Positions 1,363 through 63,522 are shown, counted from the first letter of the stretch. The stretch is DNA of 64,000 bases from Rhodothermales bacterium (GCA_951812345.1 OX638295.1:2018965-2082964), one strand, 5' to 3'. The notes: generated from the letters alone by a model not told the origin. Translations and numbers: made by a program.

Positions 1363-1399
1363 GGATACCCTCACGGTGTATGCCGTTTGCCCTGCATCG

Positions 1400-5299: not shown

Positions 5300-5306
5300 A
5301 GTCAGC

Positions 5307-15326: not shown

Positions 15327-15355
15327 GGATTTCCGCAAGCCAGCCTCAGAGGATA

Positions 15356-19698: not shown

Positions 19699-19702
19699 CC
19701 AT

Positions 19703-21847: not shown

Positions 21848-21854
21848 TGCAGTA

Positions 21855-23063: not shown

Positions 23064-23099
23064 TCCTTACCCGTCTCACAACCTGCCATCCCATTGCCA

Positions 23100-24404: not shown

Positions 24405-24434
24405 TCTTCCAACGATCATCACTCCAATCAAAGC

Positions 24435-26781: not shown

Positions 26782-26849
26782 GGTTGTACGGATTTGGTTC
26801 AAAAAATGTAATCAGCCAGCGTGCCTTATCCCCTCTCCTGCCGGTCTCG

Positions 26850-27473: not shown

Positions 27474-27523
27474 AGTGCAACGTTCTATCGGGTCAATAGC
27501 AATACATTCGGTATGTTTCCGAG

Positions 27524-29371: not shown

Positions 29372-30475
29372 TTAATCAGCGTATCCTTCACGACGTTTGT
29401 CTCCGGGATGCAATACGTTTCCGGCCTTTCCCTGGGCAAATCCCTCGATCCCCTGAAATATCTCGCTAATGCAGGGCATAGGAGGATTGTGGCACTCCGG
29501 CGTATCCGTGGCAAACAGGCCCGTGCATCTGGGTTGAAAATTATAGCCCGCATCAAGACTCGTTTCCGTTGCAGGGGTCCATTCCCTGCCTATCCCCTCT
29601 CCGGCCCCGAAGAAACCGTAGCCGTTCATCACGTTGGAAAACGTCCCCGGCACCGCAAGCAGGTTCGCGTCGAAAACCCCGCCGGGCGGCGCCCAGGACG
29701 AATCCGCAAGCAGGCCCGAGAATTCCATCTTCCGGAGCCATACGTACGGGGCGCTTTCCTCAGGATCGGAAATCAGGCAGTTGATTTGATAGGCCCTTCG
29801 GACAATGTCGAAATCCCGCTCCATATCTATCGTGAAACGCCACCCTCCCGCGATGCGCTCGACCCGATCGTCGTACGAAACAATCACCGGCAATTGCACG
29901 GCCGGGGCCACCGGCGTACCCTGCGGCCAGGCCTGGGGAGGCGGAACATTGATCGCGTGGTACGTCACGCGCAACCCGATGAGATTCGGCACGTCGCCGT
30001 CGATAAAGACAGGAATGAGTACGCTTTCGGCGCCGGTTTCGAGGGTGAAACTTGCGGCAGGCGGCACAGTCACCTCGGCACTGGCCGTTTCCCCGTCCGA
30101 GCGCACCACTTCGAGCAGATAACGCTCCTCATGCTCCGGGCGGAACGCGGCCATGAAAAAATGTCCGGTGATCAGGCTGTCGAAATGCACACGCTCGTAC
30201 TTCCACTCGATGCGCTGACTCGTCGCGAGATTCGTGGAGAATACGCGCGCATCGATCTGCGCGTCCCGGTCGGGAATCAGTTGATCCGTGACTTCAAAGA
30301 CCCGTACATACTGCGTATCGGCGGCGGCGTCCAGAAAACCCCATATCGTGAAGGCAATGTCGGTGCCGGTAATGGCGTCCACACTCTCCTCGCAACCGGC
30401 AGTCGCCAGCAGCAAGCCCGGCAATAACGCCAGCGCAAAAAGCCGGACAAACACCCTGTTTTTCATGTCTTTCAT
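29372..30475 (-). CDS. DUF4249-like lipoprotein, partner of the adjacent TonB receptor (block B)
   Basis: 367 residues with a lipoprotein signal (LLLATAGC). The early part (ITGTDIAFTIWGFLDAAADTQYVRVF) and mature body are beta-rich and match the pattern of DUF4249-like lipoproteins, which accompany short TonB receptors in this phylum rather as SusD-like proteins accompany SusC. It begins 9 bp after the receptor gene's stop, so the two are co-translated. A paralogue stands in the same position in the other block (47003-47962), sharing GTDxxxxxxG(F/V)L near the N-terminus. Its ligand is unknown. It ends the duplicated block; the GMC gene follows. Confidence 0.72.
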   Translation of the reverse strand: MKDMKNRVFVRLFALALLPGLLLATAGCEESVDAITGTDIAFTIWGFLDAAADTQYVRVFEVTDQLIPDRDAQIDARVFSTNLATSQRIEWKYERVHFDSLITGHFFMAAFRPEHEERYLLEVVRSDGETASAEVTVPPAASFTLETGAESVLIPVFIDGDVPNLIGLRVTYHAINVPPPQAWPQGTPVAPAVQLPVIVSYDDRVERIAGGWRFTIDMERDFDIVRRAYQINCLISDPEESAPYVWLRKMEFSGLLADSSWAPPGGVFDANLLAVPGTFSNVMNGYGFFGAGEGIGREWTPATETSLDAGYNFQPRCTGLFATDTPECHNPPMPCISEIFQGIEGFAQGKAGNVLHPGDKRREGYAD

Positions 30476-30484
30476 GCAAATACC

Positions 30485-32773: not shown

Positions 32774-32784
32774 AGTCGAAGGGT

Positions 32785-34062
32785 TTACGGTTGGGAAGAC
32801 GATAGATTAGCCAGCGAACTGCGCGCCATGCGATTATCCGGCTCGATACGCAAGACGGCTTCCCAGGCCCGGCGCGCATTCTCCGGATCCCCGGACAACG
32901 CATACAAACTTCCCAGGTTGATCAAGGCATGGGCATTTGTCGTATCCGCCTGCACCATGGTCCGAAACGATTGAATCGCAGAAAGGGTATCGCCCCGCAA
33001 CAAATGCAGCACGGCCACATTGTTACGGAAACCGAGGTTGCCGGGATCCAGATAAAGCGCCACGCTGTAGGCCTGCATGGCTTCGTCGTACCGGCGGGCT
33101 TTCCGCAATGACGTACCCAGTCTGGCATGCGCATAGGGGTCTTCGGCGTATGTTCGGGAGGCCGTCGTCAGGTTCGTAATTTCCGCCTGGTGCGCACGAA
33201 GTTCCTCGGCATACTGTTGTACCCCCTCCGCCTCTTCCGCATAACCAAGGCGCATCAGAACCTGGGCCATGTTGTAATGCGCGCCCTGATGCCAGGGCCA
33301 TTCCTGTGCAACGGCTTCCAGCGGAGCCAGCGCTTCGTCCCACCGTCCGAGTTTGACAAGGTACGAAGCCGCATGATACCGGTATTCGTGGTTATCGGGC
33401 GCATGACGGAGCGCGCGCCGGGCGCTGCGGAGCGCCCCCTCGAAGTCTCCAAGATCGTCCAGTAACAGAGCTGCGCCGAAATGGGCCTGGGCAAAGGTGC
33501 TGTCGAGTGCAAGCGCCTCTTCGAAAGCATAGTGGGCGCTGTCCGTCTCGCCCAGCTCGATGTATGCGCGGGCAATGCCCAGCCAGGGACGCGGATCGGG
33601 GGCGATCTCCAGTTCGCGGCGGTAGTATCCCACAGATTTCCCGTACTCTTGCCGGAGCCACGCCGTATTGCCCAGATTATTCCATACGCCGGGATAGGAC
33701 GGGCGAATCGCAAGCGCCGCCCGGTATGCCGAATCCGCCTTGTCGAGGCGGTATAATCCGGCATGAATGCGGCCGCGCAAAAACGGGATGTCCGCAAGTT
33801 CCGGCGCCAAAGCGGCTGCGCTGTCCGTAAAGGCAAAGGCCTGCGCAAAATCGTTTCGTTCCAGCGCTTCGCTGCTCAACCGGATAAAATGCCCGGCGGC
33901 AGGGGACATCGGTTGGGCGTCATTCGCCGTCCGCCCATCCGGGGCTTCCTCCGAGCGCGGTTCGTTTGCGCAGCCTCCTGCCCACAGCAGACAGCATACC
34001 ACAGGGAGGCACAGCGCCGTCCACCGGCCACACAGCACACTAAAGGATAAGATGCCTCGCAT
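32785..34062 (-). CDS. TPR-repeat lipoprotein (block B, third TPR)
   Basis: 425 residues from ATG 34062; a longer in-frame extension to 34368 overlaps the upstream gene and has no signal, so it is rejected. The start lies 4 bp after the upstream stop. Lipoprotein signal LLWAGGC. From about residue 45 there are tandem tetratricopeptide repeats (e.g. YRAALAIRPSYPGVWNNLGN, YSVALYLDPGNLGFRNNVA, AVLRIEPDNRMARSSLANL). TPR lipoproteins are protein-interaction scaffolds. Partner choice here is likely the CRTAC1-like lipoproteins encoded next to it. It is paralogous to the other three TPR proteins, with the shared phrases 'PELADIPFLRGR' and 'PGVWNNLGN'. Confidence 0.85.
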   Translation of the reverse strand: MRGILSFSVLCGRWTALCLPVVCCLLWAGGCANEPRSEEAPDGRTANDAQPMSPAAGHFIRLSSEALERNDFAQAFAFTDSAAALAPELADIPFLRGRIHAGLYRLDKADSAYRAALAIRPSYPGVWNNLGNTAWLRQEYGKSVGYYRRELEIAPDPRPWLGIARAYIELGETDSAHYAFEEALALDSTFAQAHFGAALLLDDLGDFEGALRSARRALRHAPDNHEYRYHAASYLVKLGRWDEALAPLEAVAQEWPWHQGAHYNMAQVLMRLGYAEEAEGVQQYAEELRAHQAEITNLTTASRTYAEDPYAHARLGTSLRKARRYDEAMQAYSVALYLDPGNLGFRNNVAVLHLLRGDTLSAIQSFRTMVQADTTNAHALINLGSLYALSGDPENARRAWEAVLRIEPDNRMARSSLANLSSSQP

Positions 34063-34066
34063 GACG

Positions 34067-35218
34067 TTATCTGTTCGCGGCGTCGGGTGCGGGTAACTCC
34101 GGAGACGGCATGTCTTGCGTCGCCGCCCCTTCCGCACGTTTCCGGGCGGCAGCGCCCCGGGAGGCGACCCGGGCCACGGCCAGCGCCTGTTGTTGTTCGG
34201 CGTGACGCTCGGCGATAGCAAGCCAACTGGCGAGCGTACGCCACCGGGCCGGATCGTCGGGAAACCGTGCGGCAGCGGCGCGAGCCAAACCAATCTCATT
34301 ATCCAGTTTCTGCAACGCTTCCGTGGCGTCCACATGCCGCTGGCCTTCTTCCGCGTACCCAAGCGCAATCAGCGCACGACCATAGTTGTACCGGAACGCG
34401 GACTCATAGGGTTTTGCGTACGCCGCGCGTTCCAGCAAGGAAAGCGCACCCTCCGCATCGCCGGTTTTGAGTAATAACGCGCCGAGCCGGTAGGAAAAAT
34501 CTGCATTTTCCCGATCGTATCCCCATGCCTTCTGCGCATGGGGAAGCGCCTCTTCTGTCCGCCCCTCCCCATCGTACAATTCAGCCAGCCAGGCATAGAC
34601 CTGCGCATTCGTTGAATCATGCGCAAGCGCCTCCTGGTATGCCCATGCTGCACTATCGGGCAGGTAGAGTAATTCGTACGTACGCCCCGTCTGTGCCCAT
34701 ACTTGCGACAGCACGATAGCATCTGTCCGCCGGTGAAACGTCCGGATATGCTCCGGCGAGGACAGGATGGCTTCGCGCTGAAGCCGATACCGGCGGATTG
34801 CCTCGCTGTACTGCCCCTCTTCAAACGCGACATGCCCTCGCTGAAACCAGCCGTCGCGCAGGTACGGATCAAGCGCCACAGCGCGCACAAAGGCTTCGTC
34901 CGCCGAAGCAAGCTGGTACGTATGCATCCAAAGGCTCCCCAGCAGCATGTGCGCCTCCGGAAGGCCGGGCGCCCGGTCCAGCAGGCTGTCCGCCAGCGCA
35001 AGCGCCTCCGTATACCGTCCTGCCCCCTCTTCCTCGCGCGCCTCCACAAGCAGATTCAGGACTTCTTCGTCAACCGCCTGCAAGCGTTCCGCCGGGGTCG
35101 GCGCCTGCTTCCCGCACCCGACAAGTACCAGAAATGCAAATATGCACCCTGCTACGGATATAATCGGAGAAGAATCGGGCATAACAAGTGGATTGGCGGA
35201 AACATCCGGAATACGCAT
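34067..35218 (-). CDS. TPR-repeat lipoprotein (block B, second TPR)
   Basis: 383 residues. A lipoprotein signal (CIFAFLVLVGC, Cys at about 35) is followed by TPR repeats: LADSLLDRAPGLPEAHMLLGS, AVALDPYLRDGWFQRGHVAF, AWAYQEALAHDSTNAQVYAWL and others. The C-terminal 40 residues are Ala/Arg-rich and low complexity (RVASRGAAARKRAEGAATQ). It starts 9 bp after the CRTAC1-like gene and ends 4 bp before the next TPR gene. A second in-frame ATG at codon 13 would also leave a complete signal. It is more divergent than its two neighbouring TPR paralogues. Confidence 0.85.
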   Translation of the reverse strand: MRIPDVSANPLVMPDSSPIISVAGCIFAFLVLVGCGKQAPTPAERLQAVDEEVLNLLVEAREEEGAGRYTEALALADSLLDRAPGLPEAHMLLGSLWMHTYQLASADEAFVRAVALDPYLRDGWFQRGHVAFEEGQYSEAIRRYRLQREAILSSPEHIRTFHRRTDAIVLSQVWAQTGRTYELLYLPDSAAWAYQEALAHDSTNAQVYAWLAELYDGEGRTEEALPHAQKAWGYDRENADFSYRLGALLLKTGDAEGALSLLERAAYAKPYESAFRYNYGRALIALGYAEEGQRHVDATEALQKLDNEIGLARAAAARFPDDPARWRTLASWLAIAERHAEQQQALAVARVASRGAAARKRAEGAATQDMPSPELPAPDAANR

Positions 35219-35227
35219 GCCGGACCG

Positions 35228-36970
35228 TTAAGGACGAGGTTGATTCTCCAACATAATGGTTTCCACGACATCCGCCCCTTCCACAATATGTACCTCGCGC
35301 CCGGCAGGCAGGTTCGCATACCGCGCGGTTTCCCCGCCGGGCCAATGCACCACGAGCGTATCCACCTGCGCAGCCGCACCCAATCCGAACGTCAGCGCCT
35401 TCTCCGAAGAAGCAAGGTAACTCGACCCGCTCCGGACCCGCCGTTGCATCCGTCGATCGCCTGCAATAGCCGTCACATGAGCGCCAAGGGCGTCCCTGTT
35501 CCCGTGCAGGCCCTGCAAGCGCACGCGTAAAAAAGCGCCTCTCTGCGCCTCGTTACGCAAGAGATGCACCGGCCCGCCATTCTCCGTAACCAGAATATCC
35601 TCGTCGCCGTCCCGGTCGTAATCGGCGAGGGCCGCCGCCCGGGCAATGATCGGTTCGGCGATCGGATACTCATATTCGGAAAAACGTCCATCCCCGGCAT
35701 TCAGAAAAAGCTGAGGCTCCTGCCGGTAAAACACGCCCTCCGAAAACCCTTCCACATCCGGCGATATATGCCCGTTCGCCAGAAAAATATCCATATCCCC
35801 ATCCAGGTCGGCATCGAAAAGACACAGCCCGAAGGTAAGGGTAGGAAGCGATGGCCGCCCCACCTGTGACTGAGCAGCCCGATCCAGAAACAGACCTGGA
35901 GATATCTGACGGTATAACCCCACCGCCTCGTTTGCAAAATGCCCGATAACGACCGATGGAGCGCCTGTGTGATCCAGTATTCCTGCATCCACGCCCATCC
36001 CTGCACGCGCCTGTCCCTCCTCGTCATACGCAATGCCGCTTGCCACTCCCTGTTCGACGAATGCGCCCGCCCCGTCGTTCATGTACAGCAAATCCCGCTG
36101 CATATCGTTCGCGACCACCAGATCCGGCCAACCATCCTCGTTGAAATCCCATTCGGTCACGCCCAGTGTCTTGCCGGGGGCGGGCAGAAATCCGGCTTCG
36201 GCGGTGCGGTCGCTGAATGTGCCCCCCTCATTGCGATAAAAACGACCTGGAACGCCTTCGTAAAGCTGTGGCGTGCAGTAGGTTTTGTCTTCTCCGTTAA
36301 TGGTGCACCGGATGTCTTTTTCAGGCGACCATTCGACGTAATTCCCCACATACAAATCGACATATCCGTCCAGATCGGCATCAAAAAAAATCGCCGATGT
36401 GCTCCAGGCGGCATCATCCGCAAGACCTGCAGCCTGTCCCGTCTCCACAAATACGACGTTTCCCCCGTCACTTGCCCCTCGGTCGTTTCGAAGCAACAGG
36501 TTCCGTTCGACAGCAGCGAGGAAAATATCCGGGTCCCCGTCGTTGTCATAGTCGGCGATGGCAAGGCCCATGCCGTAGGCGTGCAGGCCGGCGAGGCCTG
36601 TCTCCTCCGTGACTTCCGTAAAATACCCTCCTTCGTTCCGATACAGGCGAAGTGCAGGTATAGCGGGGTCACCCTGATCCGGCCATACGGCTCCTGCAAC
36701 CAGTGCAATATCCTGCCAGCCATCCCCGTCGTAATCAAGAAAGCCCGCCCCGCTGCCCATCGTTTCGGGAAACCACATTTCCCCGAACGCGCCGGTAACG
36801 TGCCGAAATGTATCCAACCCTGTTTCCTGCGTAACATGGGTAAACCGGAGCGCATCCGATGGAGACCCGGAAACATCCGTTTGCCCATCAAGGGCCTCGT
36901 TGCCCGTCCCGCACCCGCCCGCGGCGAGTATGCACGCGGCAAACAGCATCATGCGGCAACAAACGGTCAC
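35228..36970 (-). CDS. CRTAC1-like FG-GAP/ASPIC-UnbV lipoprotein (block B, second copy)
   Basis: 580 residues beginning with GTG at 36970, which overlaps the upstream TPR stop (GTGA). Lipoprotein signal ILAAGGC. The body is a series of FG-GAP/VCBS-type blades with calcium-loop motifs (DYDGDGWQDIALV, DYDNDGDPDIFLA, DADLDGYVDLYVG, DFNEDGWPDLVVAND, DADLDGDMDIFLANGH, DYDRDGDEDILVTENGG), a seven-bladed-propeller pattern. It ends in an ASPIC/UnbV domain (about 480-565: RVRSGSSYLASSEKALTFGLG). A Cys pair (DIRC...YCTP) between blades is shared by all four paralogues here. The family is widespread but has no agreed function. Surface display next to TPR lipoproteins suggests a scaffold or adhesion complex. 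Confidence 0.87.
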   Translation of the reverse strand: MTVCCRMMLFAACILAAGGCGTGNEALDGQTDVSGSPSDALRFTHVTQETGLDTFRHVTGAFGEMWFPETMGSGAGFLDYDGDGWQDIALVAGAVWPDQGDPAIPALRLYRNEGGYFTEVTEETGLAGLHAYGMGLAIADYDNDGDPDIFLAAVERNLLLRNDRGASDGGNVVFVETGQAAGLADDAAWSTSAIFFDADLDGYVDLYVGNYVEWSPEKDIRCTINGEDKTYCTPQLYEGVPGRFYRNEGGTFSDRTAEAGFLPAPGKTLGVTEWDFNEDGWPDLVVANDMQRDLLYMNDGAGAFVEQGVASGIAYDEEGQARAGMGVDAGILDHTGAPSVVIGHFANEAVGLYRQISPGLFLDRAAQSQVGRPSLPTLTFGLCLFDADLDGDMDIFLANGHISPDVEGFSEGVFYRQEPQLFLNAGDGRFSEYEYPIAEPIIARAAALADYDRDGDEDILVTENGGPVHLLRNEAQRGAFLRVRLQGLHGNRDALGAHVTAIAGDRRMQRRVRSGSSYLASSEKALTFGLGAAAQVDTLVVHWPGGETARYANLPAGREVHIVEGADVVETIMLENQPRP

Positions 36971-38211
36971 GGCGTGCGGGGTGAAGAAGGAAGTTGCGCC
37001 AGGGACCAGATGGCTCCCTCATGATCGGGGGCATGCCGGAGCACCGTTTCCCAGGCCGTCCGGGCTTCCTCATAGTTCCCTGACAAGGCATGGAGCGTAC
37101 CCAGATTCAGCCAGACATCGGGCTGGGCAGGCGCGAGTTGCAACAGGGCTTCGTACCGCCTGAGCGCCATAGTGGTATCTCCGGTTGCAAGATACAGGTT
37201 GGCGATGTTGTTGTGCAGTTCCAGCCAGTCCGGACGCAGGGAAATCGCTACCGTAAGCGCCTCGATGGCTTCTTCCATGCGGCCCGACCGGTGCAGCGAC
37301 TCGCCGTACCGGACCCAGAGCAGGGGTTCCATACTGTTGGTCTTGATTCGTTCCACCCACTGCTCGACGTCCCGTTGCAGGTCGAGCAGCGTATCGGCGC
37401 GGGCAAGGTATTGCGCGCCCTGGTCCGTCTGCCCGAGGCCATTCAACGCCTGCCCGAGATTGTAATGCGCCGGATAATGCCACGGAATGCCATCAGCCAC
37501 CTCGGTCAGTATCTCTGCAGCGGCTTCCAGATCGCCGTTGCGCAAACGCTGCACCCCGTACACATACGCATAATTCAGATTATCCGGGTCCAGCGCAATG
37601 CCCTGTTCGGAGTACGAAAGGGCCTCCGCAAAATCCCCTGCGTCTTCATGGAGTTGCCCAAGCCACATATACGCCGTCGGATTGGATGAGTCCGCCCCAA
37701 TGGCCAGCTCGTACGCCCAGCGGGCGCTGTCGGGCTTGCCCGTGTCGGCGTAGGCCCGCCCGAGTTGCGTCAGGTAGTCCGTCGTCTCCGATACGCCGCG
37801 CTCCTTGCGGTAGAGCGCAAGAGCCTCTGCCGGCTCGCCGTACATATAGGCGCTATTTCCCCTGTTGAACCACACGCCCGGATACTCCGGGTCCAGTTCC
37901 AGCGTCTTTTTGTAGGCCTCGGTAGCCAGATCGAGTTGCCGGAGCGCCGTGAAGGTCCGGCCCTGCATGAAGGGGATATCGGCAAGATCGGGTGCATAGC
38001 GGGCTGCGCTATCCGCCAACACAAGCGCCGCGCTGTAATATCCTGTCTCGAATGCCTGCTGGGCGTCGAGCAGGAATTCCACGGCTTTCGGGTCGGTGTT
38101 GCGGCGCGCCAGTTCCGTCAGGGACGGGGTATCCGCCTCGGGGCCGCATCCCCCCGCCGTAAAGACCATACAGGCCCCCAGGATTCCTGTCCATGCACTT
38201 GCGTTACGCAT
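36967..38211 (-). CDS. TPR-repeat lipoprotein (block B, first TPR)
   Basis: 414 residues. ATG 38211 has AAGGAG six bases upstream. Lipoprotein signal MVFTAGGC. TPR repeats run from about residue 45 to the end (ALVLADSAARYAPDLADIPF, YKKTLELDPEYPGVWFNRGNS, YEALLQLAPAQPDVWLNLGT, WETVLRHAPDHEGAIWSLAQL). Its stop overlaps the next CRTAC1-like start, so TPR and CRTAC1-like proteins are made from coupled frames, an argument for a physical complex. Closest in the window to the proteins at 32785-34062 and 51730-52965. Confidence 0.87.
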   Translation of the reverse strand: MRNASAWTGILGACMVFTAGGCGPEADTPSLTELARRNTDPKAVEFLLDAQQAFETGYYSAALVLADSAARYAPDLADIPFMQGRTFTALRQLDLATEAYKKTLELDPEYPGVWFNRGNSAYMYGEPAEALALYRKERGVSETTDYLTQLGRAYADTGKPDSARWAYELAIGADSSNPTAYMWLGQLHEDAGDFAEALSYSEQGIALDPDNLNYAYVYGVQRLRNGDLEAAAEILTEVADGIPWHYPAHYNLGQALNGLGQTDQGAQYLARADTLLDLQRDVEQWVERIKTNSMEPLLWVRYGESLHRSGRMEEAIEALTVAISLRPDWLELHNNIANLYLATGDTTMALRRYEALLQLAPAQPDVWLNLGTLHALSGNYEEARTAWETVLRHAPDHEGAIWSLAQLPSSPRTP

Positions 38212-38293
38212 AAGGCTCCTTCATCCTTCATAAAATCATCTTGCCGCACCCCGGCCACGCGTATGCAAACGCGAATACCAAGGAGACGGTTCG

Positions 38294-40033: not shown

Positions 40034-40093
40034 CCTTCCGGAAACGTTCAGGCGCCGGTTACCGGCAACGCAAATGCACAAAATGCAATGTAT

Positions 40094-41131: not shown

Positions 41132-41215
41132 TGAATCCTTTTTGGTTAAGGCCCCTGAGAACACCCCCGGCAACCGCCGCATGGGACAGCGGCCAGGGGT
41201 GCGCTTCGGGCGTAT

Positions 41216-43468: not shown

Positions 43469-43521
43469 AGTGTATCTCGGAATCAGAATGTCAAAAAGGG
43501 GTTGTCACCAACATGATCGCG

Positions 43522-46752: not shown

Positions 46753-47002
46753 GTGTGCGATCCTCCGGATATGGTTTAGGTGAGAATTCGTGACGTTGGG
46801 AATTCATATAAAAAGCACGGGCATACGCAGGCCAACCGCATACTGCTGCCCTTACTAAATGGTAAGCGCCCCAAAAACAAAAAACAAGCGGTATCGTGTT
46901 TTTTTTTGCAGTCATACCAGTCTGTACCTCGATTAAACTACCCTCCGATCAGATTACTACCCGGATACCCTGGATTATCCTGTTGCCCGGATGCGGCAAT
47001 TC
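46753..47002. promoter_or_regulatory. Intergenic region between the two duplicated blocks, probable promoter of block B
   Basis: 250 bp without a gene, unlike the tight spacing elsewhere. On the minus strand it holds a run of nine A (46899-46907 as T on plus), then an AT-rich TTG-repeat stretch (46871-46889), a CTTAC-N6-GTAAG dyad nearby, and finally a strong GGAGGA ribosome site before the receptor ATG. A phylum-type promoter is likely in the AT-rich part but I cannot fix its elements. No clear stem-plus-U terminator for the upstream block was found. Confidence 0.45.
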
Positions 47003-50343: not shown

Positions 50344-50383
50344 CCCTGTTTATTGCACGGCCGGAAAGCCGTTCATGCCATTT

Positions 50384-51706: not shown

Positions 51707-51729
51707 TGCAGAGAAAGAAAAATTACGCG

Positions 51730-52965: not shown

Positions 52966-53009
52966 ATCCTTAACCCTTTCTCCTGTCCACGAAGAACCGT
53001 TGTACACGA

Positions 53010-54791
53010 TTACCGGAGCACCCCGGAACGCCCTGCGACGGGTTCTGCCGGGTGCAACGCGCCGGATCCCTCGACAAGAATTACTTCCTGCCCGGCTTCT
53101 ACCCCGGCAAAGCGTTCGACCAGACCGCTCGGCCAATGCACTATTAGACTATCTACTTGCCGACGTGCTCCCAACCCGAATACGGCGGGAAATGCGGACT
53201 GCGACAAAAAACTCGAACCCGACCGGATACGGCGCTCCATCCGCAAGTCGCCCGCGACCGCCTCGATCCGGGCGCCGAGCGCACTTCCGTTGCTGACGCG
53301 CCCTTCCAGCCGCACATGCAGCCACCCTGCCTCGTTCAGGTCGTTGCGCCACAGATGCGCCGGTCCGGCGTTTTCCAGCAGCAATACATCCAGATCTCCA
53401 TCCCGGTCGTAATCGGCATAGGCCGCGCCGCGGGCCACCATCGGTTGCGCAAGCACGCCGGTCGCCGAAAGCGCCTCCTCAAAGACGCCGTCGCCCCGAT
53501 TCAGAAACAGCTGCGCCGGCTCCGCAAACGTAGCCCCTTCGAGAATCTCGGCGATATGTTCCAGTACATGCCCATTGGCGAGAAACAGGTCGAGGTCCCC
53601 GTCCAGGTCCGCATCGAAAAGGAACAGGCCGAAGGTCAGGGTGCCCATCGTGGGAAAGCCGATACGGGAGATGGTAGCCCGATCCGTGAAATAGCCGCCC
53701 GAGGCATGCCGGAAAACGCTCACGGTTTCCTGGGTAAAATTACCCACGAAGATGGTCGTTTCCCCGGTGCTGTCCACCACGCCCGCATCCACCCCCATGC
53801 CTGCCCGCGATTGGCCATGCCGGTCGTAGGCTACGCCGCTACGCACAGCGGCCTCGACAAACGTGCCGTCCCCGCGATTCACGAACAGCAGGTTCCGCTC
53901 CGTATCGTTGGCCACATACAGATCGGAATGTCCGTCTCCGGTTATGTCCAGTTCGGCCACACCGAGCGTCTTGTCCAGCACGGGGTCGATAGCACCCGAA
54001 AAACCGGCCTCCTCCGTCGCATCGACAAAGGAGCCATCGCCCGTGTTGCGATAGAACGCGCTGGCGACGCCCGCATAATTCTGTGGCGTGCAATAGGCTT
54101 TATCCCCCTCGTGAAAACAGGGAATATCCGTTTCGGGCGTCCAGGACACATAGTTACCTACGAACAAATCCACCCAGCCGTCCCGATCGGCGTCGAAGAA
54201 TGCAGCGGATGTGCTCCAGTACGCCTCGTCCGCAAGCCCCGCTTCTTCGCCAACCTCCTCAAACCGTCCGCCGTCATTGCGAAAGAGTAGGTTCTCGTGG
54301 AGCGTCGTCAGGAAAAAATCCGTGTCCCCGTCGTTGTCGTAATCGGCGGCGGCCACGCCGAACCCGTATACTTCCATGCCGCTGAGGCCTGTTGCAACGG
54401 AGACGTCTTCAAACGTCCCGTCGCCGAGATTGCGATAAAGCCGAAGCGCTTCGACCGGCTCGTCGGAAACGCGGGCCCAACGCCCGCCGCCCACCAGCAG
54501 AATATCCTGCCAGCCGTCGCCGTCGTAATCGAGGAAGGCCCCGCCGGGACCCACCACTTCGGGCATCCATTTCTGGCCAAAGCCCCCGTTTTCGTGCCGA
54601 TACGCACCAAGACCCGCCTCTTCGGTAACCTCCGTAAAAGCAAGCGCAACAGACGAGGCGTCCTCTCCTCCCGCACACCCGGCAACAAGTCCCGTGCAGC
54701 ACGCAACTATGGCGACGCCGGCGCAGCGCATGACCCAATGCGCTCCCCGACCCATCCTGTAAACCGGGCGCCCGGATATCCTCCTCGTCAT
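53010..54791 (-). CDS. CRTAC1-like FG-GAP/ASPIC-UnbV lipoprotein (block A, second copy)
   Basis: 593 residues; ATG 54791 overlaps the upstream stop (ATGA). Lipoprotein signal GLVAGC. Blades show DYDGDGWQDILLVGG, DYDNDGDTDFFLT, DADRDGWVDLFVGNYV, DITGDGHSDLYVAND, DADLDGDLDLFLANGH and DYDRDGDLDVLLLENAG. The ASPIC/UnbV end has RIRSGSSFLSQSAFPAVFGLG. The Cys pair (DIPC...AYCTP) is kept. A GMGVDAGVVD segment between blades is common to all four copies. Calcium-binding beta-propeller of unknown function, probably outer-membrane anchored. Confidence 0.88.
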   Translation of the reverse strand: MTRRISGRPVYRMGRGAHWVMRCAGVAIVACCTGLVAGCAGGEDASSVALAFTEVTEEAGLGAYRHENGGFGQKWMPEVVGPGGAFLDYDGDGWQDILLVGGGRWARVSDEPVEALRLYRNLGDGTFEDVSVATGLSGMEVYGFGVAAADYDNDGDTDFFLTTLHENLLFRNDGGRFEEVGEEAGLADEAYWSTSAAFFDADRDGWVDLFVGNYVSWTPETDIPCFHEGDKAYCTPQNYAGVASAFYRNTGDGSFVDATEEAGFSGAIDPVLDKTLGVAELDITGDGHSDLYVANDTERNLLFVNRGDGTFVEAAVRSGVAYDRHGQSRAGMGVDAGVVDSTGETTIFVGNFTQETVSVFRHASGGYFTDRATISRIGFPTMGTLTFGLFLFDADLDGDLDLFLANGHVLEHIAEILEGATFAEPAQLFLNRGDGVFEEALSATGVLAQPMVARGAAYADYDRDGDLDVLLLENAGPAHLWRNDLNEAGWLHVRLEGRVSNGSALGARIEAVAGDLRMERRIRSGSSFLSQSAFPAVFGLGARRQVDSLIVHWPSGLVERFAGVEAGQEVILVEGSGALHPAEPVAGRSGVLR

Positions 54792-56491
54792 GGATACAGC
54801 CGGATAGGTGTCAGATCGCCCGTCCCTTCGACAAGAAGCACATCCTGGCCGCCCGCCACCCCGGTAAACCGCTCCACAAGGCCGCTTGGCCAGTACACGG
54901 TTAACGAATCGACCTCCTCCCGGCTGCCGAGACCGAACGCAGCCACCGGCTCCGATTGCGAAAGATAACTGGACCCCGTCCGAATACGCCGTTCCATGGT
55001 CAATTCGCCCAGTCCGGCCGTAATGCGGGTTCCGAGGCCGTCGCGATTGCTCGCGCGCCCCTCGACATGCACGCGCAGATAGCGCCCCGGAGCCGTGTCA
55101 TTACGCCAAAGGTGCGCCGGGCCTCCATTTTCGGTCACAAGAATATCCTGATCTCCGTCCTGGTCGTAATCCGCATAGGCGGCTCCGCGACCGACGAGGA
55201 GGTCGGTCCATACCCCCTCTTCCGGAGTGAACTCGTCAAACACGCCGTCCCCCCGATTCAGAAAAAGCTGCGCAGGCTGCCGGTAGCGAATGCGGTCGTT
55301 CTCCCCGGTCCTGTCCGGGTGTACATGCCCATTGGCCACAAACAGGTCCAGGTCCGTATCCATGTCCACATCCATGAGAAACAGCCCGAACGTAAGGGAC
55401 AGCAGGCTCGGAAAGCCGACGCGTGAGAGCCCTGCCCGGCCGATGAACGATTCACCCTCTTCGTGACGGTACACCCCGATCATCTCGCCTGCGAAATTAC
55501 CGACGAACAGGGAATAACGCCCCGTGCTGTCCATGATCCCCGCGTCGATCCCCATGCCGGCGCGGGCTTCCCCGTGCTCGCTGAACGCAAACCCGCTCGG
55601 CACGCCAATATCGGTGAATGTGCCGTCCGCATTGTTCCGAAACAGCAAATCGCCCTCTCCGTCGTTCGCCACGGCAAGGTCGGGCCAACCGTCGAAATTA
55701 AAGTCCAGTTCGGCAACGCCCAGCGATTTGCCGAGCGTCGGCATAAAGCCGGCCGCTTCGGTGCGATCCGCAAACGCGCCGTTCCCTTCGTTCACATAAT
55801 ACCTGCTCTGCACCCCGGTATACACGGCAGGATGGCAATACAACTTGACCGTTCCCCGAAGCGGGCAGAAAATGTCCGTCTCAGGCGTCCATGCCACATA
55901 ATTCGCCACATACAGGTCGGTATCCCCATCCAGGTCCGCATCGAAGAAGATCGCGGAACTGCTCCAGATGTCGTTCCCTTCCAGACCCGCCTCGTACGTG
56001 GCCTCTACGAATCGTCCCCCTTCGTTTCGAAAGAAAAAATTGTCCTCGAGACAGGTGATATAGAGGTCCGCATCCCCGTCGTTGTCGTAGTCGGCAGCTG
56101 CCATCCCGATCGTATACCCATCCACACCGGCAAGACCCGCCGCTTCCGTTACCTCGGTGAAAGAGCCGTCGCCATTGTTCCGGTACAGAAAGATTGCCTG
56201 GACCGGCGTTTCGGGATCCCAATTCCCTCCGCCAAGAAGCAGAATATCGCTCCAGCCGTCGCCGTCGTAATCGAAGAACCCTCCCCCGGACCCCATTTGC
56301 TCGGGGTACCACTTGTCTCCGGCGGCGCCATTGACATGCCTGAAGGCGCCAAGCCCGGCTTCCGCAGCGACATTCGTAAAAACAGGAAGCCGGACATCCT
56401 CCTCGTCCGTCGACCGCGTCGTAGAGAGCGAACAAGCGCTCAACCAACCCGCAGCAAAACAAACAAGGACAATGCCCAGCCGGCCTGTCAA
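54788..56491 (-). CDS. CRTAC1-like FG-GAP/ASPIC-UnbV lipoprotein (block A, first copy)
   Basis: About 567 residues. The start is uncertain: TTG 56491 gives a compact lipoprotein signal (FAAGWLSAC), while ATG 56575 would overlap the PorV/PorQ-like gene by 65 bp and add a long polar prefix; neither has a clear ribosome site. Blades show DYDGDGWSDILLLGG, DYDNDGDADLYIT, DADLDGDTDLYVANYV, DFNFDGWPDLAVAND, DVDMDTDLDLFVANGH and DYDQDGDQDILVTENGG. The ASPIC/UnbV end has RIRTGSSYLSQSEPVAAFGLG. The Cys pair (DIFC...LYCHP) is present. Its stop is shared with the next paralogue's start, so the two copies are translated together. Confidence 0.85.
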   Translation of the reverse strand: MTGRLGIVLVCFAAGWLSACSLSTTRSTDEEDVRLPVFTNVAAEAGLGAFRHVNGAAGDKWYPEQMGSGGGFFDYDGDGWSDILLLGGGNWDPETPVQAIFLYRNNGDGSFTEVTEAAGLAGVDGYTIGMAAADYDNDGDADLYITCLEDNFFFRNEGGRFVEATYEAGLEGNDIWSSSAIFFDADLDGDTDLYVANYVAWTPETDIFCPLRGTVKLYCHPAVYTGVQSRYYVNEGNGAFADRTEAAGFMPTLGKSLGVAELDFNFDGWPDLAVANDGEGDLLFRNNADGTFTDIGVPSGFAFSEHGEARAGMGIDAGIMDSTGRYSLFVGNFAGEMIGVYRHEEGESFIGRAGLSRVGFPSLLSLTFGLFLMDVDMDTDLDLFVANGHVHPDRTGENDRIRYRQPAQLFLNRGDGVFDEFTPEEGVWTDLLVGRGAAYADYDQDGDQDILVTENGGPAHLWRNDTAPGRYLRVHVEGRASNRDGLGTRITAGLGELTMERRIRTGSSYLSQSEPVAAFGLGSREEVDSLTVYWPSGLVERFTGVAGGQDVLLVEGTGDLTPIRLYP

Positions 56492-56510
56492 CCAAAAACG
56501 GGGAACAGGA

Positions 56511-57596
56511 TCAGAAGGAGATATTGACGGCGAAGCGCTGGATTGCGTCGAAAACGCCAAAGTCCGTGTAGGCATAATCCACACCGAATCCAATATTCCC
56601 GGCGCTGTATTTCAGACCCGCTCCGAAGCTGACTCCTTCTTCCGAGTCTTCGCCCACAAAGGCGCGTCCCAAACCGCCCCGCAGGGACAGTATGTTCATG
56701 AGCGTATACTCGCCGCCGATCTTGACATGCTCCGCAAAGTCACGCGGACGCTGGGCGTCCACGGAAACCATGAAGGAATGCATGTTCGGATCCATGCTGG
56801 TGAGATCCATCACGTCCATCGAAACGCCGATCTGGAAAGTCAGGGGGAGTTCGAAACGCTCCCGCTCGTACACCAGCTCCCGCGAGAAATTCCGGGTGCT
56901 CATGGCGATCGTAAGGCTCTCGAAGCCCGTGTCGTACAGCACGCCAAAATCGAATGCGATGGTATTCAAGCCATAATCCTCGAGGGTGGCGGTGGTGCCA
57001 TCGTCAAGCGTCGAAGTAGCATCGTCCGAGCGAGCCTTGAAGTGGTCACCCAGGTCCTGCTTGGCGTACTTGACATGGGCGCCGATGGAAAAGCGATCCG
57101 TGAACGAACGGGCGTATCCCAGGCCTACTGCAAGCGCTGTCGGGTTATAGACGCCCGTATCGACATAGCCCTGCTCGTTTTCCGCGCGAACCGTTCCCAG
57201 AAAATCTCCGTAATCCACGTTGACGAGGGAGAAACCAATCACCCCGTAGTTTCCGCCGCCCGGGCGGTACGCCACGCTTGCGGCATTATACTGGATGTCC
57301 ACAAGGTAATTCATGATGCCGAATCCCGCGCTGAAATCGCCGTTCATGCGAGCCATGGAGGCGGGATTGTAGAACATCGCCGACGAGGAACCTGTGCTGG
57401 ACGAGGTTACGGCGCCGCCCATGGCGGTCGCCCTCGCATCAACGGACGCCGAGAGAAACTTGAAGCCGGTCTGACCGCGCTTCACCGTTTCCACTTCTTC
57501 GTCCGGGCTCGGGATAAACGTCTGCGCAAGCACCGACGGGGCCGTTAGTAACCCAATGGCTACGAGGAGGCACGTAGTAGCAATACTCCTTTTCAT
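56511..57596 (-). CDS. PorV/PorQ-like outer-membrane beta-barrel protein (copy 3, block A)
   Basis: 361 residues from ATG 57596. Signal peptide ends SVLAQ. Family segments FKFLSASVDARATAMGGAV and MFYNPASMARM are followed by alternating strands ending VNISF. It is the closest relative of the barrel at 40094-41131 and stands in the same position: after the T9SS-tailed exported gene (90-bp gap) and before CRTAC1-like genes. PorV-type proteins move T9SS cargo from the translocon to the surface anchor. That this copy serves the neighbouring cargo is inferred. Confidence 0.87.
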   Translation of the reverse strand: MKRSIATTCLLVAIGLLTAPSVLAQTFIPSPDEEVETVKRGQTGFKFLSASVDARATAMGGAVTSSSTGSSSAMFYNPASMARMNGDFSAGFGIMNYLVDIQYNAASVAYRPGGGNYGVIGFSLVNVDYGDFLGTVRAENEQGYVDTGVYNPTALAVGLGYARSFTDRFSIGAHVKYAKQDLGDHFKARSDDATSTLDDGTTATLEDYGLNTIAFDFGVLYDTGFESLTIAMSTRNFSRELVYERERFELPLTFQIGVSMDVMDLTSMDPNMHSFMVSVDAQRPRDFAEHVKIGGEYTLMNILSLRGGLGRAFVGEDSEEGVSFGAGLKYSAGNIGFGVDYAYTDFGVFDAIQRFAVNISF

Positions 57597-57686
57597 AATC
57601 AAGCCTGATTGAATGTCGATAAAGGGTCTCGTGTATGATCGGGGCCTCGGGGGCGAACCGGCAAGCGATCCGCCCCCTTGCCCGGG

Positions 57687-60026
57687 TTACCGAATGACCG
57701 TGAATTTCCGGAATACCTGATCGTTCGTTTCGTTGTCGGTGATCACGGCAATGTAAATACCGCTCACAAGCAACTGCCGCGCACTCGTGGTGAGATTCCA
57801 CTTCTCGTCTCCACTGCCGTCGGTGTGCTCGAGGGTCTGGATGAGCTCGCCGATCTCCGAGTAAATCTTGATCGTACAATCCCCCGGAATATTGAAGAAA
57901 GCGACCTCGTCTTCCTTGGTAAAGCGAATGGACTGATCGGAACCGAGGTTCACCGGATTCGGCACGACGCGCACATCGTTGATCGTTCCGGTCGCCCCGA
58001 ACGGCGGGCGCTTCAGGTTGGCCGGCTGGTACGTCTGCGTCAGGTACCGGCTGCTGCGCAACGCCACGCCTCCACCGGGAACCCCCGTGAGCCCACTCGG
58101 ATCGTTCGGAAGATCTTCGCCTACCGCAACGAGATAGTAGTAGTAATCCGTACCGCGAACGGCGCTCTCGTCGTTAAACGCGCTCGCACTGGCGTCCAGC
58201 ATGGGGCCTTCGCAATCCGGACGAGCGCCGCGCAAACAGGTATACGGCATTTCGTCTTCCCTGCGGCGAAGCCGCTCGTTCATCACATTCTGGTCCATGC
58301 TGCTCAGCGCGCCCAGTAGATCGTCCGCCTCGCGCACATAGTCGTAGGCCGGGCTCCACCAGACATTCCGCTCGGTACGATACACTTCCCAACCGACCCG
58401 TGACGGACCGCCGGAGAGCGGCTCCCAGGCAAGTTCGATCTGACCGGGCTTGCCGGCTACCGAAAAACTGCTTGGCGGAAGCGGTGGTTGCGCGATCGGA
58501 TAGGTCGTCAAGTCGTTCGACGCTTCGTAGACCGCCCTGGCATTCACGAAGTTTTTGAACAGCGAGTCCCGCGCCGTCAGCACCCACTGGTTCTTCGTCA
58601 TGGCTTCGAGACCCAGATCGTACACGTCATGGAAACTGTATTCCACATCGTCCTTGATCACCCCGTCGCCGTTGGCGTCGTAGCGAATGATGGCGTCCCT
58701 GTCCCGACCAGTGAGCTTAAACTCCCTGCCGATGGTCAGCGCCGCATCGAAATCAAGACCGCCCACCGAGCGAGCGAACACGATGCGTACTTCATCGCCA
58801 AATTCCATGTCGTAGGGGCCATACGCCACCGTTGCGGCGTGACCGCCCTGACGGCCCTGGCTCGGATTGTTCGACGGAGACCAGAAGTTGCCCTCGGGCT
58901 CGATACGATCCGCCCACATCGGGCACATGCGTGTGCGGGACACATCCGAAGAGCATCCCGGCGGCGCCGGCGTATGATCCTCGCGCGTCAGAATACCGTC
59001 TTCGTAATACTCGAGGTGCGGAGCCCCCGCGGCCGTCAGTTTCTCGTCCTGATCCATGAAGCCGATCGTATGCGGCTGCACATTGCGGTCGAAGGAGGCG
59101 TCGCTCATGGAATTCGGAGCGTACAGCGGCATCTCTCCATCGAAGTAGGCCCCTGCAAGACGTCCCACCGTGTCTCCCGCGGCCTGGGACCAGTGCGCTT
59201 CGAGAATCGGCGCCCCAAGGTTGTCCCAGTTGCCTGCGGAATAATCCGGCTCGTAGCCCTTCCACAGGTAATACGCCGTGATGTCGAGGGGATAATCGGC
59301 ATGGCCATCGCCTACGGCGTCCACCATGCTGTACTTGCCCCACACCTGACCACCGTCGCCGATCCATGCGGCGGTATCCGTACCGCGCCAGCGGTGGATC
59401 CAGTAGAAATAGGTCTCCTCAAGGCTCTGGCCATCCAGTTCGATATCGGGATCGTCGTCCGTATTGCCCGTATTCGTAAAGAGATATTCGACAATATGAT
59501 ATTCGTCGTGAAACGCATTGCTCCAGGCATAGGCGCGCTTGCGGACGGTGACGCCAATGTTCATATTCCAGATGGATTCCTGAACCCGGTCGGCCGGCAA
59601 ACCCGGATCAACCTCGGTCACGACAGCCACCCGGTCGAACGAAGCCACGCCGTCTACCGTGACCTCCGTGTCCTCCCATTTGGCGATCAACTTGTCTTCC
59701 ACCGGAAAGGCGAAATCCACGCCGGGGTCCCGGGGACCGATGCGCGACGTGTAGTACGGATACGCCTGTCCGTTGGGATCCGTCCAGTTCTTGGCGCCGA
59801 TCCAGAAGGCGCCGGAGCGCTCGTGCGTCGCATTCCGGTGAATGGCCGGATAGGCCATCAGGTTCGACGTTTCGTTCTTGACGCCAACCTGGGGATACCC
59901 GTCCTGGTAATCTCCAATGTCGATCCACGTAACGGTGAACTGCGCAACGGCGTCGCCGACGCCCAGTACCCCCAACGTGAGCGCAAGAACGGCGCCCGTG
60001 AAAAGTTTGTAACTGGCTTTCATCAT
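57687..60026 (-). CDS. Large exported protein with fibronectin-like and T9SS C-terminal domains (block A)
   Basis: 779 residues from ATG 60026 (a second ATG follows directly); the frame extends to 60128 but the prefix has no signal. Signal peptide ends DAVAQ. N-terminal half has YPAIHRNATHERSGAFWIGAK and FHDEYHIVEYLFTNTGNTDD, aligning with the block B paralogue at 41216-43468. A YDANGDGVIKDD loop, TKNQWVLTARDSLF, a fibronectin-type segment (SFSVAGKPGQIELAWEP) and a C-terminal domain with VVPNPVNLGSD, YSEIGELIQTLEH, SGIYIAVI and a final RKFTVIR follow. The T9SS-like tail implies surface delivery. Function unknown. Confidence 0.85.
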   Translation of the reverse strand: MMKASYKLFTGAVLALTLGVLGVGDAVAQFTVTWIDIGDYQDGYPQVGVKNETSNLMAYPAIHRNATHERSGAFWIGAKNWTDPNGQAYPYYTSRIGPRDPGVDFAFPVEDKLIAKWEDTEVTVDGVASFDRVAVVTEVDPGLPADRVQESIWNMNIGVTVRKRAYAWSNAFHDEYHIVEYLFTNTGNTDDDPDIELDGQSLEETYFYWIHRWRGTDTAAWIGDGGQVWGKYSMVDAVGDGHADYPLDITAYYLWKGYEPDYSAGNWDNLGAPILEAHWSQAAGDTVGRLAGAYFDGEMPLYAPNSMSDASFDRNVQPHTIGFMDQDEKLTAAGAPHLEYYEDGILTREDHTPAPPGCSSDVSRTRMCPMWADRIEPEGNFWSPSNNPSQGRQGGHAATVAYGPYDMEFGDEVRIVFARSVGGLDFDAALTIGREFKLTGRDRDAIIRYDANGDGVIKDDVEYSFHDVYDLGLEAMTKNQWVLTARDSLFKNFVNARAVYEASNDLTTYPIAQPPLPPSSFSVAGKPGQIELAWEPLSGGPSRVGWEVYRTERNVWWSPAYDYVREADDLLGALSSMDQNVMNERLRRREDEMPYTCLRGARPDCEGPMLDASASAFNDESAVRGTDYYYYLVAVGEDLPNDPSGLTGVPGGGVALRSSRYLTQTYQPANLKRPPFGATGTINDVRVVPNPVNLGSDQSIRFTKEDEVAFFNIPGDCTIKIYSEIGELIQTLEHTDGSGDEKWNLTTSARQLLVSGIYIAVITDNETNDQVFRKFTVIR

Positions 60027-60135
60027 GATCTTGTTCGAATGTGCAGAATAACTGCCGTCGATTTTCATCTCCGGATGAACGCGCCAGAGGTCGGCGGACG
60101 CAATGCCGCCGACCCCCGAACGCATCAATTTTCCC

Positions 60136-63100: not shown

Positions 63101-63522
63101 ACGGGCAGATCCTGAAAATCCTGGGCGCTCAGGTTCGCCACGTTCGCCGAAACGTCCGCCTGCACAATAGGCTGTTCGGCCACGACGACCACTTCGTCAA
63201 GGCCTACCGTTTCTTCCTGAATCTGGAAATTGACCGTGGAGGTGAGGTCCGTACTTACGTGGATCCCTTCCTGTACGGCTGCCGTGTACCCGATGAACGA
63301 TGCGCGTATGTTGTACGTACCGGGGCGCACATTCAGAATGTGGTAGAACCCTTCGGCGTCGGTAACGGCGCCTTGCGTCGTTCCCTCGATCGCGACATTC
63401 ACGCCGGGAAGTGATTCCCCGGTGCCCGCATCGGTTACCTGACCAGCGATCTTGCCTTGCTGCGCCCAGGCGGTAGCCGGAATAAGCAGAGCAAACGTAA
63501 ACAGTAGCTTTGCCAGTCTCAT
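60136..63522 (-). CDS. Long TonB-dependent receptor, first gene of block A
   Basis: 1128 residues from ATG 63522, which has GAGGG (63531-63535) at good spacing; an ATG six bases earlier is too close to that site. Signal peptide ends AWAQ. The regulatory domain (GKIAGQVTDAGTGESLPGVN) is followed by a plug with GLDEVVVVAEQPIVQADVSA, GLNEVAFIVDGLQM and YTSLEEVQVQTGGFSAEYGNVRSG, then a barrel ending LRVSF. It is paralogous to the receptor at 43522-46752 through the signal peptide, plug and C-terminus, with length differences in the loops. It is the first gene of the whole minus-strand array. Ligand unknown. Confidence 0.88.
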   Translation of the reverse strand: MRLAKLLFTFALLIPATAWAQQGKIAGQVTDAGTGESLPGVNVAIEGTTQGAVTDAEGFYHILNVRPGTYNIRASFIGYTAAVQEGIHVSTDLTSTVNFQIQEETVGLDEVVVVAEQPIVQADVSANVANLSAQDFQDLPVAGVSEVLDLQAGIEPGMRVRGGGLNEVAFIVDGLQMRTGRHNDPMTSISYTSLEEVQVQTGGFSAEYGNVRSGIVNVATKEPSRTEYTVDALIRFAPAQDKTFDPYHQLPSSCSYPSSDVECNTWFARPVLDPAVRLNGSGGVWDAYEARQYKPFPGWAGIISRLHDEGFDVTEADMIEYWHYMWRKSNEITMPDYDADITIGGPIPGISQHLGGLRFLASYRGSQTAYLYPQDRQAYTDNTYQVKLISNVGPGMKLTAHALGTRQRGQLWQENSRGTELWTGQIPAYPWWQSEGRDVGKQIWEIDIRGDELFTDGQWPIGDIDHDMLGLQFTHTLNQNTFYEVGLQRMESNYHTKLPTLRDGSYVCSADGTGPNGESCQPYELVRIPWTDNFGRPNPGFEGHAGLVCFGGGSDVTGDGQNTPYCSGEEPFGFAGIGGNILTDESTGGHWVKTRDTSTVTVYTGRFDLTSQINRFLLFQTGAELIYSDYDMNYASINIALAGPQSGARWPWDGSPVQGAAYVQSKLEFQGMIANVGVRLDYFDPNTEWWQYGFYDGILRFDRDKLDEDLERESVGSQVGVSPRVGISFPITTNSKLYFNYGHFRQMMNAYDVLGIQQSKAGGIDQIANPNHPLPKTVAYELGFDQNVLDLFLLRISGYYRDNKEETRNVNFQSLGNVVNYSTKMPWHYSDTRGAEFSISKNRGQWVQGFANFTYQQRKSGNFGYSNFFENSFQMVNWLRTATDYRQSAPVAEPFARANLLVLTPQGFGPEIGGKTPLGNFRISLLGEWRKGVALTWAGDFAASIPEVRNNLRYRDYWNFDLRFTKHFAAGPTQLQLFADIDNVFNLRHLNWGGAFLERQGDDAGDYMRSLHLPEDMFHQLPEGSSKPYEWVPGDDRPGVFRDWDVEWQPIEAKATLPEAPDAGFERGWVYAADSGTYHKWEGGAWQQVSGSELDQVLEDKAYIDMPNHRFNTFLNPRRVTLGLRVSF

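Follow-up and report, generated by a model that had tools for sequence, protein, structure and literature searches.

The core of two neighbouring outer-membrane gene blocks in a Rhodothermales bacterium resembles a little-described importer present in several phyla

What are two long blocks of outer-membrane genes, alike in gene order, doing side by side in one bacterial genome, and how did they come to lie there? The question is raised by a 64,000-nucleotide stretch of a Rhodothermales bacterium (OX638295.1; hereafter the window), part of a single-contig genome of 2.82 Mb (G000; C1:2018965-2082964). Its blocks A (63528-47003) and B (46752-29372), with all genes on the minus strand, each run from a long TonB-dependent receptor through an exported protein with a type IX secretion system (T9SS)-like C-terminal tail (the cargo), a PorV/PorQ-family barrel and a set of CRTAC1-like and TPR lipoproteins to a short TonB receptor and a DUF4249 lipoprotein. 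Compared across genomes, the core of these blocks, namely receptor, cargo and barrel, looks like a poorly described kind of importer shared by several bacterial phyla.

We listed the open reading frames (ORFs) of the window, compared all of their products with one another by BLASTP and assigned families with Pfam and NCBIfam. The results agree with what a sequence-only reading of the stretch had described, both in the families and in the matching order of homologous genes in two adjacent blocks. Identities between A and B were 44% for the long receptor (1146 aligned columns), 36% for the cargo (800 columns), 51% for the barrel (361 columns), 50-53% for the CRTAC1-like proteins, 30-38% for the TPR proteins, 46% for the short receptor (742 columns) and 33% for DUF4249 (297 columns), with E-values from 4e-38 downwards in all pairs; these values and the conserved order rule out chance resemblance. 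The middles of the blocks differ as had been read, A holding two CRTAC1-like genes, one TPR gene and a hydrolase-like gene, and B the series CRTAC1-like, TPR, CRTAC1-like, TPR, TPR. Some details changed: the upper block limit moved from 63522 to 63528, and the single transcription unit stays a suggestion, with A and B separated by 250 bp in which no promoter or terminator signal rose above that of shuffled sequences. Start codons of several ORF calls lie too far upstream.

With the block A barrel as query, about a dozen relatives were found in the genome, and around 12 barrels (those of A and B included) lies the same trio of TonB receptor, protein with a T9SS-like tail and PorV/PorQ-family barrel. 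Comparisons between genomes drew on stretches around family members (loci with L numbers, from G001, G003, G004 and others). Relatives of the window in named collections are Rhodothermales metagenome-assembled genomes (MAGs), the nearest being OX638293.1 ('Rhodothermales bacterium'; 85% identity in the cargo protein), which is the same chromosome as G003. Our cassette survey covered 78 loci of named genomes and stretches from genomes of the order, with 124 cargo relatives. A receptor lay directly upstream in 108 of the 124, and in 100 one of the two genes that follow, on the same strand, encoded a barrel; the hosts are MAGs or strains of Rhodothermota, Balneolota, Ignavibacteria, Neomarinimicrobiota, KSB1 and Caldithrix. 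Gene order across these genomes marks the core out as a fixed three-gene cassette. Cargo-like genes also occur in another setting: one locus (L053) has three in a row (~1,075, 1,091 and 614 aa) with neither receptor nor barrel, and lone long forms resembling them are found in L052, L106 and L109.

Within the literature library used, searches on the trio, on CRTAC1 with TonB and on DUF4249 returned only the papers cited here, none of which describes the trio as a system, and to this extent the view that the machine is absent from the literature stands. It does not stand throughout, as the trio is printed, unremarked, in the alginate locus of Rhodothermus marinus (PMC9530828), and the pairing of a receptor with DUF4249 has already been proposed (PMC11003636).

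The sequence-only reading further explained the pair by a head-to-tail duplication of a 16-17 kb block in this lineage, after which the copies diverged for two ligands. Although matching gene order, clear paralogy and adjacency on the same strand favour such an event, trees of the cargo (47 rows), receptor (41), barrel (42), CRTAC1-like (36) and TPR proteins (43) speak against it. At seven positions (receptor, cargo, barrel, two CRTAC1-like and two TPR proteins), A and B are placed apart, and the genomes that accompany each of them recur from tree to tree: block A genes cluster with G013b, plus G034 or G016b where present, and block B genes with G011, the Rhodothermus copies forming further groups. 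Because this grouping recurs separately for the first and second CRTAC1-like (CRT1, CRT2) and TPR proteins (TPR1, TPR2), whole blocks share a history. The order of B (barrel, CRT, TPR, CRT, TPR) is retained in G011 and that of A (barrel, CRT, CRT, TPR) in G013b. Approximately unbiased (AU) tests, each comparing two trees, rejected an A+B clade for the cargo (p 9.8e-6), for the receptor (p 1.4e-42) and for the barrel (p 9.8e-5); the A+B group was taken from the duplication claim, not picked from the tree. With few outgroups, DUF4249 of A leans the same way, clustering with G013a, G049 and G012b rather than with B, and the short-receptor tree, also short of outgroups, favours neither grouping. 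B resembles a third cassette, D, about as closely as it resembles A (cargo 39% versus 36%, receptor 43% versus 44%), and A-type and B-type blocks are found apart in other families. Since each type has orthologous blocks in other families, A was not derived from B in place; by the test that the duplication claim had set for itself beforehand, A and B genes are each nearer to other families' blocks than to each other, and we regard copying within this lineage as very improbable.

As far as the sequences tell, A and B are instead two ancient block types kept adjacent in the genus, not a fresh duplicate, and their neighbourhood is retained in G001, G003 and G004 of the same genus. What survives of the earlier proposal is that each block behaves as a coherent outer-membrane unit: its positions share one history, its order is kept in other families, and all block genes are under purifying selection, with ratios of nonsynonymous to synonymous divergence (dN/dS) of 0.07-0.33 in one comparison, G000 versus G004. 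A very old tandem duplication, before the Rhodothermales families split and followed by loss of one or the other block in most of them, would account for the presence of both types within this order and for the tandem pairs in this genus and in Rhodothermus. The Rhodothermus pair, however, is built from two further types, which do not correspond one to A and the other to B, single blocks sit at other places in other families, and tandem layouts may have evolved repeatedly; we consider such an origin unlikely, if still credible. In the Rhodothermus loci (L129-L137, L147-L149) the genus's own cassettes lie about 16 kb apart in three genomes, or one of the two is present, and most of these genomes carry very large (~1,100 aa) CRTAC1-like proteins upstream. 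In G016b, a 304-aa ORF, a transposase by its appearance, splits the cargo gene in two (L154, 8233-11671).

Within the genus, the trio of block B may have had a history of its own. Against G003, synonymous divergence (dS) was 0.82 for its receptor, 1.26 for its cargo and 1.20 for its barrel, compared with 0.17-0.33 for CRT1, the short receptor, DUF4249 and the adjacent GMC dehydrogenase gene of B, 0.47 for TPR1 and 0.23-0.65 for block A genes, a pattern that fits exchange of the B trio as one piece in one lineage. The second block of G003 (L138-L140) lacks CRT2, TPR2 and TPR3 beside the apparently replaced trio.

How could the three parts of the cassette be connected? Both barrels score well above the cut-off of the PorV/PorQ family NF033709 (Table 1) and neither reaches that of NF033710, PorV in the strict sense (52.7 bits for A and 60.4 for B, cut-off 250); the true PorV of the genome lies at C1:1563835 beside PorU, and genes for SprA and PorU are present. 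The A cargo tail stays below the cut-offs of TIGR04183 (23 bits) and PF18962 (17.7 versus 27), and none of the 12 cassette cargos exceeds the latter. Searching the genome with Por_Secre_tail (Pfam) returned 47 tails, 36 of them above cut-off on their own; two cassette cargos were listed, lowest and under the cut-off, and the other ten were absent from the result. The cassette tails have a common pattern of their own, ending like SGIYIYHVE...GKFVIIK, and among curated models the A and B tails match that of the PorZ tail best. In the structural model of the B cargo, the structure of PorZ (5m11) matches residues 651-750 (Z 11.6, root-mean-square deviation 2.4, 88 residues, 25% identity). Viewed more broadly, the cargos have what a T9SS substrate would have: a hydrophobic N-terminal stretch in the sequence, a PorZ-like C-terminal tail in the model, and T9SS genes in the genome.

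Among the 12 paralogues, tail distances correlate with barrel distances (r 0.57, permutation p 1e-4), as do receptor distances with barrel distances (r 0.86), which is what joint inheritance would give. Because the genome has ordinary T9SS tails and a canonical PorU-PorV pair beside the distinct cassette tails, we propose that each barrel is dedicated to its cassette's cargo. In the PorZ/PorQ and PorU/PorV pairs of the T9SS, tails stay uncleaved and bound to PorQ and PorV (PMC10202324). The cassette likewise joins a protein with a C-terminal domain (CTD) to a PorV/PorQ-family barrel, and its tail aligns to that of PorZ, but the cargo body is neither PorU nor PorZ, and one genome holds many paralogous pairs, every one accompanied by a TonB receptor. 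Specialised shuttles also exist for type B tails (PMC12618676), where, as here, the gene for the cognate shuttle lies just downstream of each exported protein; those shuttles are of the PorP/SprF kind, whereas the cassette barrel is of the PorV/PorQ family, the tail is nearer to type A/PorZ, and a receptor gene is included.

The cassette can also be compared with the SusC/SusD (RagA/RagB) importers of Bacteroidota, which similarly combine a TonB receptor bearing an N-terminal carboxypeptidase-like domain with a surface partner in nutrient loci. The cassette differs in that its receptor lies far below the SusC cut-off, SusD is missing, the partner carries a T9SS tail rather than being a lipoprotein, and a PorV/PorQ barrel is added. 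Against the SusC model TIGR04056 (cut-off 368 bits) the long receptor scored 68.7 and the short one 46.4, and Pfam searches gave no SusD match among the block proteins, the genome having one SusD gene (PF07980, C1:2104500); membership of the blocks in the SusCD class was ruled out by these receptor scores and the absent SusD.

Related cassettes lie in nutrient loci. The alginate locus of R. marinus contains, in order, tonB, a T9SS-tail protein and a PorV/PorQ protein (PMC9530828), followed not by CRTAC1/TPR lipoproteins but by alginate lyases and kdg genes, and the function of the trio was left unassigned there. In R. marinus DSM 4252, recognised by its plasmid (NC_013502.1, 100%), a locus with receptor, cargo, PL6-type, PL17-type and SDR genes and, by family search, a PorV-family match at the expected place (L172) corresponds to this published locus. 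Another R. marinus cassette (L171) precedes a sugar ABC transporter (sugar-binding protein and permeases) and GH130, and two more, L173 (1.8-16.8 kb) and the cassette at 2144 kb of the present genome (L010, 1-13 kb), are each near an alpha-amylase, suggesting alpha-glucan cassettes. Partner genes vary with cassette type: the 70 loci without CRTAC1 (D-type) have TIG lipoproteins (54 loci), T9SS propellers (50) and the glycosidases GHL10 (31) and NAGPA (8), none of which was found in the 18 CRT-type loci. These contexts bear on another explanation of the blocks, that instead of importing they serve T9SS attachment or build surface structures such as adhesins or a surface layer, receptor and barrel only assembling and anchoring surface proteins. 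The PorZ/PorQ-like tail and barrel would suit that role, CRTAC1-like propellers and TPR proteins could serve adhesion, and the TonB-type receptor Oar is reported to be needed for PopC secretion in Myxococcus (PMC6434023). Against it stand the glycan loci, where related cassettes lie among lyases, glycosidases and sugar ABC transporters, and the variation of partner enzymes with cassette type, and we judge it distinctly unlikely.

The cargo body offers a further clue. An AlphaFold2 model of the B cargo, built from 75 aligned sequences, reached a predicted local distance difference test (pLDDT) score of 88 and a predicted template modelling (pTM) score of 0.86, and shows a sandwich followed by an FN3 domain and then the PorZ-like tail. 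Residues 31-573 matched the N-terminal beta-sandwich of GH94/GH116-type enzymes and their relatives over about 240-290 residues (Z 14.5-18.6); the 41 highest-ranking rows were all of this kind, and those after them fell below Z 12. This match came from VIA-align, Foldseek alone giving mainly FN3 domains. The (alpha/alpha)6 catalytic domain of GH94/GH116 is absent from the alignment of the B cargo model, which covers the sandwich part only, and Pfam detected no catalytic domain in the block cargos, nor was a solved structure matching the cargo by sequence found. An enzymatic role was set aside because no catalytic domain was found; going by the model, the sandwich may be a non-catalytic, glycan-binding domain.

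From these comparisons we infer the following arrangement. The cargo would be exported by Sec and then by the T9SS translocon, for which SprA and PorU genes are available, and its unusual C-terminal domain would be received and retained by its own barrel, as PorQ does for PorZ. At the surface, its carbohydrate-type beta-sandwich would bind the substrate and pass it to the long TonB receptor, the job done elsewhere by SusD, while CRTAC1-like propellers and TPR lipoproteins might act as additional surface-binding or scaffold subunits, and the short receptor with its DUF4249 lid as a linked second transporter. A sugar-containing or polyhydroxy compound is the probable substrate, and it is plausible that A and B take up different ones. 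In sum, we favour, at a probability of roughly 0.6, the reading that A and B are ancient, were inherited separately and belong to a widespread type of outer-membrane uptake module. This module would resemble SusCD nutrient importers, with a T9SS-delivered capture protein that a PorV/PorQ-like barrel of its own retains, and CRTAC1 propellers and TPR lipoproteins would be accessory parts.

Several observations weigh against this importer reading. The cargo tail is only weakly similar in sequence to known T9SS tails, and its correlation with the barrel is also expected from co-inheritance alone. The GH94-type sandwich is a fold match without the catalytic domain, and a common fold shows no function. 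Glycosidases were not found next to CRTAC1/TPR-type cassettes; GMC or pyrroloquinoline quinone (PQQ) dehydrogenases lie near 11 of the 18 CRT-type loci, a count biased because the loci differ in length, several of these being longer than D-type ones. Finally, the cargo of the alginate locus matches the A/B cargo profile weakly (83 bits), so it may share just the tail with them.

The remaining block genes add partners to the core. A DUF4249 (PF14054) protein stands beside the short receptor in both blocks, that of B above the family cut-off and that of A below it (Table 1) and aligned with B along the whole domain; the A gene probably starts at 47962, where an ATGA overlap of 4 nt joins it to the receptor stop. 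The acidic residues after the lipid-bearing cysteine of this protein (C-EED) resemble surface-export signals of Bacteroidota lipoproteins. A TonB transporter beside DUF4249 has been proposed as a transporter-lid pair for BT2172/BT2173 (cited in PMC11003636), and by analogy DUF4249 is proposed here as the lid of the short receptor. As in that pair, the lipoprotein directly follows the receptor; unlike it, the pair here is tied to cassette blocks with CRTAC1/TPR genes, lying near 8 of the 18 CRT-type loci versus 1 of the 70 others, at least four of the eight coming from this genus. A DUF4249 model was poor (pLDDT 67, 8 sequences) with generic immunoglobulin-like domains as its PDB matches, and was not used. 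All four CRTAC1-like proteins exceed the FG-GAP_3 and UnbV_ASPIC cut-offs; they share FG-GAP repeats and the ASPIC/UnbV domain with other CRTAC1/ASPIC-UnbV propellers, the human CRTAC1 structure being matched, and differ in being bacterial lipoproteins within an outer-membrane gene block. The hydrolase of block A, read as dead from the window, has the elbow AHGLGA in place of the GxSxG motif with its nucleophile Ser of active alpha/beta hydrolases in every orthologue found. Occurring in block A only, Ser-less in every orthologue of the genus and under purifying selection, it appears to be a retained pseudoenzyme.

Table 1. Coordinates of the block genes and selected neighbours within the window.
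Feature	Position	Strand	Evidence
A long TonB-dependent receptor, 1130 aa	60136..63528	-	CarbopepD_reg_2 and Plug above Pfam cut-offs; TIGR04056 68.7 bits, cut-off 368
A exported cargo, T9SS-type C-terminal domain, 813 aa, with the true start probably within the ORF	57687..60128	-	No Pfam match; TIGR04183 17.8 bits; PorZ-tail E 6e-7; 36% to B cargo
A PorV/PorQ-family barrel, 363 aa, start ~57596	56511..57602	-	NF033709 182.5 bits, cut-off 90
A CRTAC1-like lipoprotein 1, FG-GAP propeller and ASPIC/UnbV	54788..56593	-	Pfam; human CRTAC1 structure 9etn E 1.5e-13
A CRTAC1-like lipoprotein 2	53010..54791	-	Pfam; own orthologue in G013b
A TPR lipoprotein, ORF 5' end too long	51730..53136	-	Pfam TPR; lipobox LAGC; groups with G013b TPR
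A alpha/beta-hydrolase-like pseudoenzyme without nucleophile Ser	50384..51706	-	Abhydrolase_1 at cut-off; AHGLGA elbow; dN/dS 0.23-0.28
A short TonB-dependent receptor, 794 aa	47959..50343	-	Plug and CarboxypepD_reg; 46% to B short receptor
A DUF4249 lipoprotein, proposed lid of short receptor	47003..47962 (ORF call to 48289)	-	DUF4249 20.8 bits, below cut-off 28.5; lipobox LSAC-EED; alignment with B
B long TonB-dependent receptor, 1076 aa	43522..46752	-	Pfam Plug, CarbopepD_reg_2, OMP_b-brl_3
B exported cargo, T9SS-type C-terminal domain, 750 aa	41216..43468	-	AlphaFold model: N-terminal beta-sandwich, FN3, PorZ-like tail
B PorV/PorQ-family barrel, 362 aa	40094..41182	-	NF033709 171.6 bits, cut-off 90
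B CRTAC1-like lipoprotein 1	38294..40081	-	Pfam; groups with G011 CRT1
B TPR lipoprotein 1	36967..38211	-	Pfam; groups with G011 TPR1
B CRTAC1-like lipoprotein 2	35228..36970	-	Pfam; groups with G011 CRT2
B TPR lipoprotein 2	34067..35218	-	Pfam; groups with G011 TPR2
B TPR lipoprotein 3, ORF 5' end too long	32785..34368	-	Pfam
B short TonB-dependent receptor, 762 aa	30485..32773	-	Pfam
B DUF4249 lipoprotein, proposed lid	29372..30475	-	DUF4249 29.3 bits, cut-off 28.5
GMC-type FAD dehydrogenase just downstream of B, kept there in genus	27524..29242	-	GMC_oxred_N/C; in G001, G003, G004
Gluconate 2-dehydrogenase subunit 3-like lipoprotein	26850..27473	-	PF13618 E 1e-31
Third, more distant cassette of same kind	301..8216 (barrel 301-1374, cargo 1400-5299, receptor 5307-8216)	-	Homology to A/B parts; one of 12 in genome

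Directly after B (25843-29242) follow genes for a GMC dehydrogenase, a gluconate 2-dehydrogenase subunit 3-like protein and a xylose-isomerase-like protein; the GMC and isomerase-like genes lie near the blocks in G001, G003 and G004 as well, and the subunit-3-like gene in G003 and G004. The GMC enzyme is a possible catabolic partner of B, and the subunit 3-like lipoprotein a probable partner of the GMC enzyme. Further on, a plus-strand cluster for 2-aminoethylphosphonate catabolism (8679-25721) encodes PhnW, PbfA, the phosphonoacetate hydrolase PhnA and an HpnW-type oxidoreductase above NCBIfam cut-offs, a PgtP/GlpT-like transporter, and PhnY just under its cut-off (634 versus 635.65 bits). 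The third cassette lies in divergent orientation to this cluster and may take up a compound related to its substrate.

A broader proposal, to which we give somewhat short of even odds, is that such cassettes form a separate class of TonB importer in several phyla of the Fibrobacterota-Chlorobiota-Bacteroidota (FCB) group, in which the role of SusD would be taken by a T9SS-exported protein locked to a dedicated PorV/PorQ-family barrel through a sorting domain of a distinct class. This would add a third pairing of tail and barrel to type A/PorV and type B/PorP-SprF, and the trio would move and swap as one specificity cassette. If this is true, many Rhodothermota, Balneolota, Ignavibacteriota and their relatives would feed by importers that join type IX secretion with TonB-dependent uptake, systems usually treated apart. 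The 12 receptor cassettes beside a single SusD gene in this genome would be explained, a large set of PorV/PorQ-family proteins would gain a role, and nutrient loci overlooked by SusC/SusD-based searches would gain a marker. Because the cultivated R. marinus has several such cassettes, one of them in its alginate locus, the idea is open to direct test.

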